From positions 744,001-808,000 of the forward strand of contig NZ_OW235315.1 in NCBI RefSeq assembly GCF_934924865.1: a DNA stretch of 64,000 nucleotides, written 5' to 3'. This document shows, piece by piece, positions 7,997 through 60,528 of the stretch (position 1 is its first letter; each line of letters starts with the position of its first letter). This stretch comes from Tepidibacter aestuarii. GTDB lineage: Bacteria; Bacillota; Clostridia; Peptostreptococcales; Peptostreptococcaceae. The notes under the pieces are model-generated. The model saw only the letters and a list, made by a program, of their open reading frames with translations, was not told the origin of the DNA and did not search any database. Position numbers and translations under genes: made by a program.

Positions 7997-8692
7997 TTAC
8001 AGTTTAGCAACTGGGTTTTCTTTATAGCTAATCCAAATCCTTTTTTAAGGACTCTTTTTCTTTGAAAAAATTATTTTTTATATTATTTTGCCATGGGTAG
8101 TTCGTAGCACTAGGAATATGCCCAGCTGTAGCATATAAAGGCTCATTTTCTCCTAGATATCTTTCATAGGCCCTAGAGTCGATTAATACGATATTATCGT
8201 CGGCTTTTCTTGATTTTACATAATCTATATAACAATAAATATCTTTATTTATTTTTATACTGTATTTTCCTTGTTTTTCTACTTTATGTATTTCTTTTGT
8301 TATAGGATAACCTTGCTTTTTCCATTCTTGTGTACCACCATTCAGTACATAGGTTTTATCGTATCCTAAATATTTTAATAACCACCAAAGCCTAGGAGCA
8401 CCATCTAAATATTCATCATATATGACAATGGTTGTATGATTATTAACTCCTATATTTTCTAATTTTTCTTTAAATAGATTCAAATCTGGAATAGGCCTGA
8501 ATCCTCCATGTTTTTTTCTTTCCCCTGATAAATCATTATTCATGTCAAGGTAAAATGCATTTTTAATATGATCTTCTTCATATATTTTTTCCATAAGTTG
8601 GATAAAAATAAATTAAATCTACAATCCAAAACTACCATACTATTATTATCTAAATGATTAAATAGCCAAGAAGCAGTAACAAAATTTTTCAA
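7997..8692 (-). pseudogene. Broken SseA-type sulfurtransferase (rhodanese)
   Basis: The longest open stretch (8594-8028) reads as a two-domain thiosulfate/3-mercaptopyruvate sulfurtransferase (DLSGERKKHGGFRPIPD, APRLWWLLKYLGYDKTYVLNGG) but lacks both ends. A plausible N-terminus, MKNFVTASWLFNHL..VVLDCRFNL, lies upstream in another frame from TTG at 8692. Two shifts in A/T runs near 8590-8620 separate it. At the 3' end, KKDLD is followed at once, in another frame, by WISYKENPVAKL, the family's usual C-terminus. The ~40 residues between them, which hold the catalytic Cys loop, are missing. I judge it non-functional. Homopolymer sequencing errors could explain the shifts but not the deletion. 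Confidence 0.8.
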
Positions 8693-20357: not shown

Positions 20358-20392
20358 CTGATTAGAAACATCATTAATGTTTTGGATGAAGA

Positions 20393-20541
20393 TAGCGGGA
20401 GAGCATAGCACCGAAGAAGTAAAGCTTTCAGGTATAAAGACCGCTATTGGACAAATCTCTGGAGAGACTCTATAGAGCACCGAAGGAGCAAACTGCATTT
20501 GATCATGCATGCGAAACTCTCAGGTAAAAGGACAGGGAAAT
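20393..20541 (+). ncRNA. Tandem glycine riboswitch
   Basis: Two successive glycine aptamers are readable. The first runs from GCGGGAGAGC through GCACCGAAG to CTTTCAGGTATAAAGACCGC. The second runs from CTCTGGAGAG through GAGCACCGAAGGAGCAA to AACTCTCAGGTAAAAGGACAG. The repeated GCACCGAAG and CTCAGGTAAAAGGAC blocks are the glycine-binding consensus. The short linker between them favours the cooperative tandem type. It precedes an alanine/glycine symporter gene, so it tunes glycine transport. Confidence 0.95.
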
Positions 20542-38490: not shown

Positions 38491-38510
38491 ATATGAAAAT
38501 AGAATAGTAT

Positions 38511-38581
38511 CACTCATATAATCAGGGAAATATGGTCCCAGAGTTTCTACAGAGTAACCGTAAATTATTCAACTATGGGTG
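38511..38581 (+). ncRNA. Purine (guanine-type) riboswitch
   Basis: P1 arms CACTCAT and ATGGGTG enclose TATAATCAGGGAAATATGG, the P2 loop, GTTTCTAC, CCGTAAA in L3 and AACTATGG in J3/1. The C at the specificity position (ACTATGG) indicates guanine/hypoxanthine/xanthine-type recognition rather than adenine. The C-G pair at the base of P3 is replaced by A and A, a departure from consensus. It controls xpt and possibly the permease. The matching terminator is at 38691. Confidence 0.88.
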
Positions 38582-38690
38582 TTTAGGCATGCATTGAGAG
38601 CATACGATTAGAGTATAATTATACGTGTTTTTGTAATACAAATAATATACTTGAAATTTTATGCTATTGATAGACATGAAGTAATATACT

Positions 38691-56398: not shown

Positions 56399-56710
56399 AT
56401 GGATTTGGAGGGTATGCAAGTTAGGGTGTTAAAGGCCATGGCTCATCCTATAAGGCTTAAGATAATAAAGAAATTAGGAGATCAAAAACTTTGTGTATGT
56501 GAATTAAATAAAGATGTAGAGTTTACTCAATCTAATTTATCTCAGCATCTTAAGATATTAAAGGAAGCTGGTATACTAGATAGCGAGAAAAAGGGTCTTT
56601 GGATGCACTATAGGGTTAGAAATAAAGAAGTACTTGATGTAATAAACATTGTAGAAAAAATTGTAAGTGATAATGTAAAAAATCTAAATAAAGAGTTAGG
56701 GGGACAATAA
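56399..56710 (+). CDS. ArsR/SmtB-family metalloregulator
   Basis: 103 residues: MAHPIRLKIIKKLGDQKLCVCELNK (residues ~14-38), DNA-recognition helix QSNLSQHLKILKEAGIL and wing GLWMHYRVRN. The KLCVCEL pair of cysteines corresponds to the alpha-3 CxC site of arsenic/antimony-sensing ArsR proteins. Metal(loid) release of the operator would turn on the permease downstream. ATG after AAAGGTG; two bases before the permease gene's start, hence same operon. Confidence 0.92.
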   Translation: MDLEGMQVRVLKAMAHPIRLKIIKKLGDQKLCVCELNKDVEFTQSNLSQHLKILKEAGILDSEKKGLWMHYRVRNKEVLDVINIVEKIVSDNVKNLNKELGGQ

Positions 56711-56711
56711 T

Positions 56712-57704
56712 ATGGATTTCATCAACAATATGCTTCAGTTTACTTGGCTTAATAATTTGGTAAGACTTTTAGTTGAGAATGTATTTGGTATTTCTATGGA
56801 AACTCACTTAGGAGGAAGTATTCATTTTTTCATATATGATACTATAAAGATAGTAATACTTCTTGGAATAATGATATTTATTATATCTTATATAAGAAGT
56901 TATTTTTCACCTGAGAAGACTAAGAAGATATTAGAAAAATTTGGAGGGATATCTGGAAATATAATGGCTTCCCTTTTAGGTATTGTAACTCCGTTTTGTT
57001 CTTGTTCATCGGTTCCTTTGTTTATAGGATTTGTTGAAGCTGGAATACCTATAGGTGTTACATTTTCTTTTTTAATAACATCTCCAATAGTAAATGAGGC
57101 AGCTTTTGCAATACTTTTAGCATCATTTGGATGGAAAATAGCGGTTGTATATGTTATAACAGGAGTTGTAGTTGGTGTAATTGGAGGGATACTAATAGGA
57201 AGCCTTCATTTAGAAGATCAAGTAGAAGAATATGTGTATCAGATAAAAATGGGAGAATCTGAGATAGAAGAATTAGATAGAAAGCAAAGAATAGATTTTG
57301 CAATTCAAAATGTAAAAGATATAATAAAGAGAGTGTGGATATACTTAATTATAGGAATAGGTATTGGGGCTGTAATACATGGATGGGCACCTGCCGAGAT
57401 ACTTAGTAAGTACGCAGGACCTAACAATCCTCTAGCTGTAATTGTAGCAGTTGTTGTTGCGATTCCTCTTTATTCTAATGCATTAGGGACTATACCTATA
57501 GCTGAGGCGCTAATAATTAAAGGAGTAGGTATTGGGACTGCACTAGCCTTTATGATGGCTACGACTGCCTTATCGCTTCCTGAGATGATACTTCTTAGAA
57601 AGGTTATAAAACCTAAACTTATAGCAGTATTTGTAGCTATAACAGGAGTTAGTATAATTTTAGTAGGTTATATGTTTAATGCTATATCGCATTTGCTTAT
57701 ATAA
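56712..57704 (+). CDS. YraQ/ArsP-type (DUF318) permease
   Basis: 330 residues, about eight transmembrane helices. The conserved TPFCSCSSVPLFIGFVEAG (residues ~95-113) and SPIVNEAAFAILLASFGW are YraQ/ArsP-family signatures, as is YSNALGTIPIAEALIIKG in the second half. ArsP members export organoarsenicals; other family members have unknown substrates, including possible sulfur or selenium compounds. The ArsR gene upstream suggests metalloid-linked control. Confidence 0.88.
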   Translation: MDFINNMLQFTWLNNLVRLLVENVFGISMETHLGGSIHFFIYDTIKIVILLGIMIFIISYIRSYFSPEKTKKILEKFGGISGNIMASLLGIVTPFCSCSSVPLFIGFVEAGIPIGVTFSFLITSPIVNEAAFAILLASFGWKIAVVYVITGVVVGVIGGILIGSLHLEDQVEEYVYQIKMGESEIEELDRKQRIDFAIQNVKDIIKRVWIYLIIGIGIGAVIHGWAPAEILSKYAGPNNPLAVIVAVVVAIPLYSNALGTIPIAEALIIKGVGIGTALAFMMATTALSLPEMILLRKVIKPKLIAVFVAITGVSIILVGYMFNAISHLLI

Positions 57705-57739
57705 TTATTTAAAATAAATATATTAAAGGAGGAGTTAAT

Positions 57740-57970
57740 ATGAACATTAAAATTTTAGGTGGGGGATGTAAAAACTGTGAGGTATTATATGAAAATACTA
57801 AGCAGGCTGTTGAAGAGTTAGGAATCGAGGCAACTATTGAGAAGGTAACTGATTTTGTTGAGATAGCTAAGTATGGAGTTATGAAAACGCCAGCTCTTGT
57901 TGTAGATGAAAAGGTTAAGATATCAGGAAGAGTTGTTAAGGCTGATGAGATAAAGAAGGTTCTTGCATAG
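57740..57970 (+). CDS. Thioredoxin-like small protein (CxxC)
   Basis: 76 residues: MNIKILGGGCKNCEVLYENT with redox motif CKNC, then VMKTPALVVDEKVKISG (cis-Pro TPAL). It matches the minimal TM0996/MTH895-type redox thioredoxins. These are encoded next to YraQ-type permeases so often that a functional pair is likely (e.g. reduction of a substrate or of the permease CSC motif); that is inference. GGAGG site before ATG; terminator follows. Confidence 0.9.
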   Translation: MNIKILGGGCKNCEVLYENTKQAVEELGIEATIEKVTDFVEIAKYGVMKTPALVVDEKVKISGRVVKADEIKKVLA

Positions 57971-57980
57971 AATTTATTAA

Positions 57981-58021
57981 TAACCTAGATTTCGTACAAA
58001 TGAAATCTAGGTTATTTTTTT
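57981..58021 (+). terminator. Terminator of the ArsR operon
   Basis: TAACCTAGATTTC and GAAATCTAGGTTA form a 13-bp stem with an eight-base loop and a T7 tail. Confidence 0.92.
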
Positions 58022-58131: not shown

Positions 58132-58827
58132 ATGGAGTTTATAAAGAATAACAAAATAAAAATATCAGTTATATTATTAATTATATGTATGTATTTGTTT
58201 ATACCTTCAGTTAAAGTAAACGTAAATCAAGCTGTATTTATTTTAAGTAATGTGAATGTCGATATGGCTAGAGAGTATATATTGTCATTTGGGATATGGG
58301 CACCTATTGTATCTTTTTTACTTATGATTTTACAATCGGTTGCAGCACCTCTTCCTGCATTTATTATTACGTTTGCTAATGCTGGGTTGTTTGGGTGGAT
58401 TAAAGGAGCTATTCTATCTTGGTCTAGTGCCATGGCAGGAGCTGCACTTTGCTTTTATATAGCTAGATTTTTAGGAAGAAATGCAGTAGAAAAGCTTACA
58501 TCTAAAACTGCATTAAAAAGTGTAGATGAATTTTTTGAAAAATACGGTAAATATGCGATTTTAATTGCAAGATTACTTCCTTTTATATCATTTGATATTG
58601 TAAGTTATGCAGCGGGACTTACATCTATGAGTTTTTGGTCTTTCTTTATAGCTACAGGAATTGGACAACTTCCTGCTACAATTATTTATTCATATATAGG
58701 TGGTATGCTTACAGGAACTGCAAAGACTTTTGTATTTGGATTATTATGTTTATTTTCACTAAGTATATTAATAGCACTAATTAAGAAAATTTGGGATGAC
58801 AAAAAAAGACAAGGAGGGAAATTATAA
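58132..58827 (+). CDS. TVP38/TMEM64 (VTT-domain) membrane protein 1
   Basis: 231 residues, five to six hydrophobic segments. The VTT core is seen in APLPAFIITFANAGLFGWIKGA (residues ~75-96), SSAMAGAALCFYIARFLGR and ARLLPFISFDIVSYAAGLT. VTT/DedA-like proteins are scramblase- or transporter-related membrane proteins of unsettled function. ATG at 58132 after AGGAGG. The predicted selenoprotein rhodanese begins with the base after its stop, so the two are translationally coupled. Confidence 0.88.
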   Translation: MEFIKNNKIKISVILLIICMYLFIPSVKVNVNQAVFILSNVNVDMAREYILSFGIWAPIVSFLLMILQSVAAPLPAFIITFANAGLFGWIKGAILSWSSAMAGAALCFYIARFLGRNAVEKLTSKTALKSVDEFFEKYGKYAILIARLLPFISFDIVSYAAGLTSMSFWSFFIATGIGQLPATIIYSYIGGMLTGTAKTFVFGLLCLFSLSILIALIKKIWDDKKRQGGKL

Positions 58828-59769
58828 TTGAAATCTAAAAGAATAATTCTTTTATTAATGAGCATCTTGCTAATAACTGCTTTAGTTGGATGTTCTAAAA
58901 ACAACTCAACAGTAAAAGAACAAGAATTTGATGCTTCAATTTATGAAAATAATGATTTTTTAATTACTCCTAATGAATTAAAAGATTTATTAGGAAGTGA
59001 AGAACTAGTACTTCTTGATTGTAACAAACCTGATATTTATCAAAAGCAACATATTCCTGGTGCTGTAAGTATAGGTCTTCACGCATTTTCAGATAAAACA
59101 GGAAAACCGGGAGATCCAGGTTGGGGAACTATTGTAAACAAAGAGGAGTTAAAATCAAGATTGGAATCATTAGGAATAGATAATAATAAAACAGTAGTAT
59201 TTTACTCAGATGTATTTAAAGGACCAGGAGCTGATGGAAGAGCTGTTTGGCAGTTAAAACAAGCTGGTATGGATAATGTAAAACTATTAGTTGGAGGTCT
59301 TTCTTATTGGAAAGATATGGGTTATGATACAACTAATGAAGTATCAAATCCAATTCCAACTTCAGGTGTAGTTCTTAAAGATTATGATGAAAGTTATAGT
59401 GCTACAAAAGATTATATATATGAAAATCTAGGAAAACAAGTAGTAATAGATGTTAGAACAGATGCTGAATATAAAGGATCTCAAAAAGTAGGAGAACCAA
59501 GGGGAGGTCATATTAAAGGAGCCAAGCATATGCTATGGACAGATCTTTTAAATGAAAATGGAACACCTAAATCTCCAGACGAGATCAAAACTATTATGGC
59601 TGATATGGGAGTAACTCCTGAAGATGATTTCACAGTATACTGAACTATGGGTATAAGATCTGGATATACATCTATGATCCTCAGAGCCGTTGGCTTTGAT
59701 AAAGTTAGAAATTATGAAGCTTCAATATATGAGTGGAGCGGAGATTTCGATATGCCTATGGAAAAATAG
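58828..59769 (+). CDS. Two-domain rhodanese lipoprotein, predicted selenoprotein (in-frame UGA)
   Basis: 313 residues if UGA at 59641-59643 is read as selenocysteine 272. Signal peptide with lipobox LVGC (~22), an inactive first rhodanese domain (~47-180, no Cys in its loop YSDVFKGPGADGR), and a second domain (~185-313). UGA sits exactly where the catalytic Cys belongs: DDFTVY-U-TMGIRSGYTS, compare the family CxxGxRSG loop. The frame then continues in good register (ILRAVGFDKVRNYEASIYEW) to TAG at 59767, with no other stop. A SECIS-like hairpin follows the UGA. TTG start at 58828, AAGGAGGG upstream. Expected role: sulfur or selenium transfer outside the membrane; donor and acceptor unknown. 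Without Sec insertion it would end at residue 271, losing the active site. Confidence 0.85.
59649..59680 (+). promoter_or_regulatory. Candidate bacterial SECIS element
   Basis: Starting 5 nt after the UGA, GGGT (59649-59652), ATA and GAT pair with ATC, TAT and ATCC on the 3' side (to 59680), with single bulges at A59656 and G59676. The ten-nucleotide apical loop CTGGATATAC contains GG and begins 16 nt after the UGA. Bacterial SECIS hairpins sit within the coding region right after UGA, as here. The loop's first two bases are C and U, which deviates from the G-rich expectation. Confidence 0.6.
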
Positions 59770-59790
59770 AACATTGTAAAAATTCAACAT

Positions 59791-59820
59791 AAAGGATTGT
59801 TCTAGTTAGAGCAATCCTTT
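59791..59820 (+). terminator. Hairpin after the rhodanese gene
   Basis: AAAGGATTGTTCT and AGAGCAATCCTTT form a 13-bp stem (one G-U) with a four-base loop. The following T-run is absent, so termination may be partial and the next VTT gene could be reached. Confidence 0.55.
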
Positions 59821-59847
59821 AGCGTTGTTATAGGGAGCTGGTTTGGT

Positions 59848-60528
59848 TTGAATAAAGTGAGTATAGGTTCAAAAAAAAGAATAATAATAGGAGTTTTAAT
59901 GGTGAGCATAATTATTAGTATGAAGTTTTTAGGTGTATTTGAATATGTAAGCATAGATAATGCATATAAAATAAAAAATTACATACATAAATTAGGTATG
60001 TTAGGACCAATAATATATATTATATTCTTTGTTATAGGATGTGTTGCTTTCATACCAGCACCGCCAATGGCTATAATTGCTGGAATGGCATTTGGACCTA
60101 TTAATGGATCTATATACACTTGTATAGCTGCCCTTATAAGTGACGCATCTGCTTTTTTGATAGCAAGATACGTTGCTAAGGACATTGTCCAAAATAAAGT
60201 TAAGACTAATAAATCACTTGCTAAAATAGATAATTTAGTCAAAAATCACGGATGGAGAATATTGATTATAACAAGATTAGTTCCTGGATTTCCGTATATG
60301 CTACAAAGCTATGCTTACGGCATAACAAATATTAAATTTAAGTCATACATTTTAGCTTCTTGGATATTAACTATACCTGGAATAATAGCATTTACACTAG
60401 TAGGAGGATCTATAAATTCTTATCAAAATATGGATAAAATTTTTATTTGCCTTGGAGTATGTGCTGTATTAATTACTATTTTATCTTTGATTCCAAAAGT
60501 ATTAAAGAAAAAATATGATTTGATATAA
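59848..60528 (+). CDS. TVP38/TMEM64 (VTT-domain) membrane protein 2
   Basis: 226 residues, five to six hydrophobic segments, with IPAPPMAIIAGMAFGPINGSIYT (~residues 70-92) and TRLVPGFPYMLQSYAYGIT, the VTT signatures. It is a diverged relative of the protein at 58132 and is separated from it only by the rhodanese gene. TTG start after TAGGGAGCTGG. Function unknown; the repeated VTT-rhodanese pairing suggests a linked role. Confidence 0.87.
   Translation: MNKVSIGSKKRIIIGVLMVSIIISMKFLGVFEYVSIDNAYKIKNYIHKLGMLGPIIYIIFFVIGCVAFIPAPPMAIIAGMAFGPINGSIYTCIAALISDASAFLIARYVAKDIVQNKVKTNKSLAKIDNLVKNHGWRILIITRLVPGFPYMLQSYAYGITNIKFKSYILASWILTIPGIIAFTLVGGSINSYQNMDKIFICLGVCAVLITILSLIPKVLKKKYDLI

Follow-up and report, generated by a model that had tools for sequence, protein, structure and literature searches.

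Does a UGA codon that stands at the catalytic position of a rhodanese gene in Tepidibacter aestuarii specify selenocysteine (Sec), and, if so, by what RNA signal would it be decoded? The gene lies in a stretch of 64,000 nucleotides (contig NZ_OW235315.1, positions 744,001 to 808,000; here 'the window', in whose coordinates all positions are given unless another contig is named) for which a first-pass annotation had proposed a Sec-containing rhodanese. Analysis of the window, of related loci and of the remainder of the genome indicates that 58828-59769 very probably encodes a two-domain rhodanese lipoprotein with Sec at the catalytic position, a reading that rests on comparison of sequences.

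A UGA codon at the catalytic position of a rhodanese lipoprotein

The gene and its landmarks are:

58828..59769, + strand: predicted Sec-rhodanese lipoprotein gene; TTG start, TAG stop (59767-59769), 313 aa with UGA as Sec
59641..59643, + strand: UGA codon for predicted Sec272, at the catalytic Cys column; TGA in 15 of 15 loci of a codon alignment
58811..58817, + strand: AAGGAGG, ribosome-binding-site-like, 10 nt 5' of the TTG, as read from the sequence
58891..58893, + strand: codon of lipobox Cys22, the predicted lipidation site; Cys conserved at this column

As the first-pass annotation had stated, the frame contains a single TGA, at residue 272 of 313 and at the catalytic Cys position, after which it continues in register for 41 residues to the TAG. 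A Pfam search of the protein finds two rhodanese stretches (PF00581), and the UGA column aligns with the active-site Cys of structures 1e0c and 1uar; two rhodanese domains with the catalytic residue in the second is the arrangement of the two-domain thiosulfate/mercaptopyruvate sulfurtransferase fold. The first rhodanese domain indeed lacks a catalytic Cys, which is the normal state in two-domain enzymes of this type. The N-terminal signal helix ends in the lipobox LVGC (residues 19-22), and the column of Cys22 holds Cys in 118 of 121 aligned sequences (Tyr in 1, gap in 2), so that, by its signal helix and lipobox Cys, the protein is a predicted bacterial lipoprotein.

Whole-genome and genome-contig searches yielded 23 distinct related DNA loci from 22 genomes (L009-L019, L041, L042, L061-L063, L079-L082 and L089-L091; the duplicates L039, equal to L010, and L040, equal to L012, were left out). 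At all 23, TGA is followed in frame by TMGIRSG. The tail after the TGA is 41 aa long in 22 of 22 measured loci, matches that of the window at 29 to 41 of its 41 positions, and is terminated by TAG (15 loci) or TAA (7 loci), never by TGA. The locus thus presents an in-frame UGA flanked on both sides by coding sequence conserved across species, as is expected of a selenoprotein gene. The nearest named loci are from Tepidibacter (T. mesophilus, 90% identical; T. hydrothermalis among proteins), and the Sec loci extend across Bacillota (Pelotomaculum metagenome-assembled genomes) and Actinomycetota (Aquicultor metagenome-assembled genomes). Locus L063 is cut short by a contig end, and with L076 (G006:C23) it represents a second, incomplete copy of the Sec-rhodanese gene that one genome carries at the end of a contig and whose hairpin II stem has one change (see below). 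In a plasmid collection, the single match was from Enterococcus (33% identical).

The genome carries the machinery that decoding of UGA as Sec would require, for which the first-pass annotation had asked: tRNA-Sec (selC; 72.2 bits, gathering score 47), SelA (624 bits, cut-off 268), SelB (383 bits, cut-off 242) and SelD (389 bits, cut-off 125), with all four genes within 8 kb on one strand (2,274,525-2,282,218 of contig C1). Two further Sec genes of this genome show the same kind of interruption: selD is itself interrupted by an in-frame TGA (TSAG-U-AAKIGP), and two of the three copies of grdB stop at a TGA beyond which the open frame of the known Sec site continues. Outside this genome, a selB above the cut-off was present in 19 of 19 further Sec-version genomes.

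Cys counterparts, the second kind of evidence that had been called for, are also present. A paralogue in the same genome (L060, C1:3128814-3129749) has Cys at the UGA column, as does a metagenomic protein, P0007, which reads on to its end; 16 Cys-motif loci were placed in a tree, where the Cys versions form a separate clade. L060 adjoins a gene that resembles, by eye, a peptide-type ABC substrate-binding lipoprotein.

Protein databases give a different picture. A protein search returned 398 homologues, 120 of which underlie the figures given here for database proteins, and 116 of these 120 end at the Tyr just before the UGA, so that the family is recorded mostly as truncated proteins without the active-site loop. 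P0101 ends otherwise, and P0049 and P0069 carry Trp at the UGA position, which we read as the product of gene calls under a table in which TGA is Trp. Truncation of homologues had been named as an observation that would speak against Sec; it is confined to annotation, and the DNA reads on at 23 of 23 loci.

Three explanations that dispense with a functional Sec were weighed. If the gene were a pseudogene or the product of a sequencing error, with the TGA a nonsense change or read error and the tail a fossil, the ending of database proteins at the TGA would follow naturally. However, 22 genomes share the identical TGA, the tail retains family-level identity in 22 of 22 loci, and the RNA is under selection beyond its codons (see below). 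Moreover, among 59 TGA read-throughs in the whole window (upstream frame of at least 20 aa, downstream frame of at least 35 aa), the Sec-rhodanese has the longest upstream frame (271 aa; next, 192 aa), which, with the recurrence of the TGA, bears out the first-pass argument that a chance nonsense mutation is unlikely. Conservation of the TGA across distant genomes in effect already refutes this explanation. Insertion of another amino acid at the UGA (for example Trp, under translation table 4), or general read-through, is scarcely more credible; the Trp in P0049 and P0069 would fit it, but the position is that of the catalytic nucleophile, Cys in paralogues, selABCD are present, and in-frame TGA codons recur in selD and grdB, known Sec genes. 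Somewhat less remote, although still improbable, is that the functional product is the 271-aa truncated protein, with Sec read-through minor or selenium-dependent. The first domain is itself highly conserved, and a UGA always permits some termination; against this, the truncated protein would be missing the final strand and helices of its second rhodanese domain as well as the active-site loop, and the tail is conserved more than, or equally to, the upstream part in 22 of 22 loci, as measured against the window.

Two conserved hairpins downstream of the UGA

The RNA 3' of the UGA contains two adjacent hairpins:

59657..59679, + strand: hairpin I; 9-bp stem with a 1-nt bulge and a tetraloop, 13 nt after the UGA, covarying; proposed folded spacer
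59680..59700, + strand: hairpin II; stem of 7-9 bp, CGUUG loop, near-frozen sequence, rare codons; proposed SelB-binding hairpin of a selenocysteine insertion sequence (SECIS)

The window RNA after the UGA folds into these hairpins with an energy of -16.6 kcal/mol (z -2.39); 3 of 200 dinucleotide shuffles are as stable, and synonymous resampling of codons from 18 window genes gives an energy as low in 2 of 2000 cases. Codon usage points in the same direction. Across 15 loci there is no variation in the codons TAC-TGA, GTT and GGC, and CTC and TTT vary in one of the 15, whereas the codons of other invariant residues vary freely; and, in the 18-gene sample, GCC and GGC in hairpin II, and ATC and CTC in the stretch before it, are the rarest codons of their amino acids. 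An alignment that covers 21 of the 23 loci in 19 distinct rows has 98.0% of its cells paired. Changes on both sides are seen in three pairs (reached by 9 of 500 shuffles) and in eight cells (0 of 500), and the covariation score is 0.174 vs. 0.109 (0 of 500 shuffles), falling to at most 0.067 when partners are slid by 1-3 columns, with the proviso that related rows may exceed such shuffles without any structure. An RNA model derived from 18 rows has a single hit with E up to 1 in the T. aestuarii genome (150 of 1770 first-look candidates scored) and three more in the 397 other genomes of a phylum sample, all three of them Sec rhodaneses.

The first-pass annotation had drawn a different hairpin, with a 10-nt loop and beginning 5 nt after the UGA; the conserved structure lies elsewhere. 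The nearest equivalent, a GUAU/AUAC pairing whose loop has 11 nt, is formed in 92.2% of cells, but its covariation is matched or exceeded by 327 of 500 shuffles, and it occupies the loop of a better-supported hairpin; it was rejected. Thus the Sec reading is supported by the tests named for it (selABCD, a Cys/Sec pair, truncation in annotation only, a SECIS-like element), and what changes is the place and shape of that element.

The published model of the bacterial SECIS (bSECIS) has a stem of 4-16 bp, a loop of 3-9 nt with G in the first two positions, a distance of 16-37 nt from UGA to apical loop, and a minimum free energy of at most -7.5 kcal/mol (PMC13188914; here and below, statements on cited papers refer to the portions of their text available to us). 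Hairpin II has G at loop position 2 in 20 of 20 sequences and the required energy in 19 of 20, and 14 of 20 of its loops fit N1-G-U-N-N2, with N1 pairing N2; its loop, however, lies 44 nt after the UGA, beyond the permitted range. Hairpin I has its loop in range, at 22 nt, but G in the first two loop positions in 0 of 20. Neither hairpin alone therefore satisfies the model. These departures weigh against a SECIS formed by the two hairpins, as do irregularities within the alignment: of 21 distinct sequences folded singly, 4 (L080, L063, L019 and L089) have an optimum other than hairpin I and one (L061) shortens it, 3 of 19 rows leave stem pair 21-34 open, and hairpin II of L063 is weak (-5.9 kcal/mol).

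A two-part element would account for the complementary deficits. SelB and Sec-tRNA would decode the UGA at 59641 with the help of a downstream SECIS composed of both hairpins, with hairpin II the likely SelB target and hairpin I a structural spacer whose folding would set hairpin II at the customary distance in space from the UGA. Once hairpin I is folded, what lies between the UGA and hairpin II is only 13 unpaired nt, a helix and one further nt. The start of hairpin I, 13 nt after the UGA, equals that of the predicted selD stem (13 nt) and is near those of the predicted grdB folds (8 and 11 nt). Sec insertion, and these roles of hairpins I and II, are what we infer from the pattern; the two hairpins might also have the opposite roles or act together.

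A competing and less likely reading accepts Sec but takes hairpin I alone as the SECIS, with hairpin II kept for a second SelB contact, mRNA stability or ribosome pausing. It would suit the place of hairpin I, which is within the range of published distances and close to the predicted grdB and selD hairpin loops of the same genome (18 and 20 nt after the UGA), and hairpin I covaries. It would not explain why the loop G is absent from hairpin I and universal in hairpin II, together with the N1-G-U-N-N2 loops of the latter, nor why hairpin II hardly varies in sequence, as would be expected where a protein binds.

A VTT-domain partner and the proposed function

The gene is flanked by two genes for VTT-domain membrane proteins (PF09335):

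58132..58827, + strand: VTT-domain membrane protein 1 gene, directly upstream; its stop codon abuts the TTG
59848..60528, + strand: VTT-domain membrane protein 2 gene, downstream of the Sec-rhodanese gene
59790..59821, + strand: 14-bp hairpin after the Sec-rhodanese gene, terminator-like, with no T run directly behind

For the first VTT gene the ATG at 58132 was preferred to a longer mechanical reading frame from 58000, whose start falls inside a terminator-like hairpin. A VTT gene lies directly upstream in 17 of 20 assessable Sec loci (63-100% identical to that of the window; three loci end too soon). Of the Cys-version loci, 23 in all, 11 have a VTT gene of some kind in the sequence retrieved around them, and in five (L021, L023, L025-L027) the gene is 70-79% identical to that of the window and lies downstream, whereas in the Sec version it lies upstream. 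The presence of the same VTT partner beside both versions suggests a single functional unit, in which Cys can stand in for Sec and vice versa. The second VTT gene is more restricted: among the loci examined it is found downstream only in Tepidibacter (87-100% identical) and its nearest relative (L061, 58%), and the more distant Sec loci examined gave no match to it at that place.

From the genome, and with high confidence, we take the product to be an extracytoplasmic, lipid-anchored two-domain sulfurtransferase (COG2897/TST-like) with a catalytic Sec whose UGA is decoded via the two-hairpin SECIS; frame, UGA position, RNA structure, sel genes, Cys paralogue and VTT linkage all agree with this assignment. 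The protein would be exported and lipidated at Cys22; Sec272 would accept sulfane sulfur (or selenium), for example from thiosulfate, polysulfide or a persulfide, and hand it on; and the enzyme would work with the co-encoded VTT-domain protein. Its most likely role is thus to transfer sulfane sulfur (or selenium) on the outer side of the membrane, presumably within an extracytoplasmic unit; lipidation, sulfur donor and acceptor, and the action of the VTT partner are the more conjectural steps. More tentatively, the RNA element may represent a bacterial SECIS of a separate class: hairpin I, the covarying spacer, would fold away 23 nt for a frozen SelB-binding hairpin II 44 nt off. It may serve a clade of surface-anchored Sec-rhodaneses forming with the VTT protein an extracytoplasmic sulfur/selenium acquisition unit, with Cys and Sec enzymes alternating beside the same partner.

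To the contrary points raised for the hairpins, others are to be added. The VTT gene is absent beside Sec loci L068, L074 and L073; L062 has a frame break further upstream of the TGA; and selB exceeds the cut-off in 13 of 13 tested genomes with the Cys version also, so that its presence is needed but not discriminating. The Sec version is, in addition, patchy and rare: it occurs in 12 of 71 family genomes and 17 of 393 order genomes (E 1e-80), and, in a class sample of 391 genomes, only in the genome analyzed here. In the phylum sample, the RNA-model search finds it in 4 of 398 genomes.

Relation to known rhodaneses and other features of the window

Two-domain Sec rhodaneses were predicted already in 2005. 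A Sec rhodanese of COG2897 was described from the Sargasso Sea (3 sequences; PMC1088965) and one of cd01449 from GOS (8 sequences; PMC2398784), and Sec rhodaneses are named in two reviews (PMC9312934 and PMC13188914, the latter listing 'rhodanese form 4, UxxG', which matches the U-TMG of the Tepidibacter protein). The view that such a membrane-anchored, extracytoplasmic selenoenzyme is unusual is accordingly to be moderated. Compared by description, the COG2897/cd01449 proteins belong to the same two-domain SseA/TST-like class, with Sec as the predicted redox residue; the lipoprotein character, the VTT neighbour and the two-hairpin element are features of the Tepidibacter group that are absent from the descriptions in the available text. 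No description of a VTT-linked Sec rhodanese or of a two-hairpin bSECIS was found in the literature searched, in part-text, and an earlier one is possible. As far as these searches show, three things are new: the VTT-associated lipoprotein clade, the fact that its members are mostly annotated as truncated proteins, and the two-hairpin element.

Other relatives differ more clearly. An NCBIfam search of the protein found no model above its cut-off. The Sec rhodaneses NF041203 (rhodanese_LYCAU) and NF045694 (TsoB) share with it a rhodanese domain and Sec, but scores of 33.2 (cut-off 115) and 26.4 (cut-off 805), respectively, are so far below the cut-offs that it belongs to neither family. Azotobacter vinelandii RhdA (1e0c) and the Thermus rhodanese (1uar) have Cys instead of Sec, aligned chains without a lipobox extension, and active-site loops QTHHRSG and RIAERSS, respectively, vs. 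TMGIRSG. The Cys lipoprotein rhodaneses (L060; L021, L023, L025-L027) are approximately 35-40% identical over the whole length and share the motif YC-x-x-GIRS; apart from Cys and their separate clade, they differ in having no in-frame TGA.

If correct, the proposal adds a clade of selenoenzymes hitherto recorded mostly as truncated proteins, and an extracytoplasmic sulfur enzyme with a selenium nucleophile. It would also provide a conserved, directly testable alternative to the bSECIS distance rule, which some genes are reported to break and for which a 2026 review defines no alternative class (PMC13188914). The VTT neighbour common to Sec and Cys versions would, furthermore, give a handle on the role of a poorly understood membrane protein. 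For DedA/VTT proteins of COG0398 type, function is unproven and lipid scrambling possible (PMC10127716). According to the same source, rhodanese fusions are known for COG0586-type DedA proteins, their connection being 'unclear' (the window VTT genes are typed by PF09335), and a DedA protein linked with selenite resistance is cited there by title only.

Genes for ArsR (56399-56710), an ArsP_1 permease (56712-57704) and a Thioredoxin_3 protein (57740-57970) were considered as part of the Sec-rhodanese unit and rejected, because a strong 17-bp terminator-like hairpin with TTTTT (57979-58016) intervenes and because the more distant loci clustered lack these genes next to the Sec gene. The interval 56399-57970 appears to be a separate small redox or metalloid operon, and its Thioredoxin_3 protein has 76 aa and a CxxC motif. 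Elsewhere in the window, a rhodanese-type open reading frame of 188 aa (8028-8594, - strand) has two PF00581 stretches, of which the first aligns to the profile only from position 25 onward; tandem glycine riboswitch aptamers lie at 20386-20538, and a purine riboswitch aptamer lies at 38494-38595.
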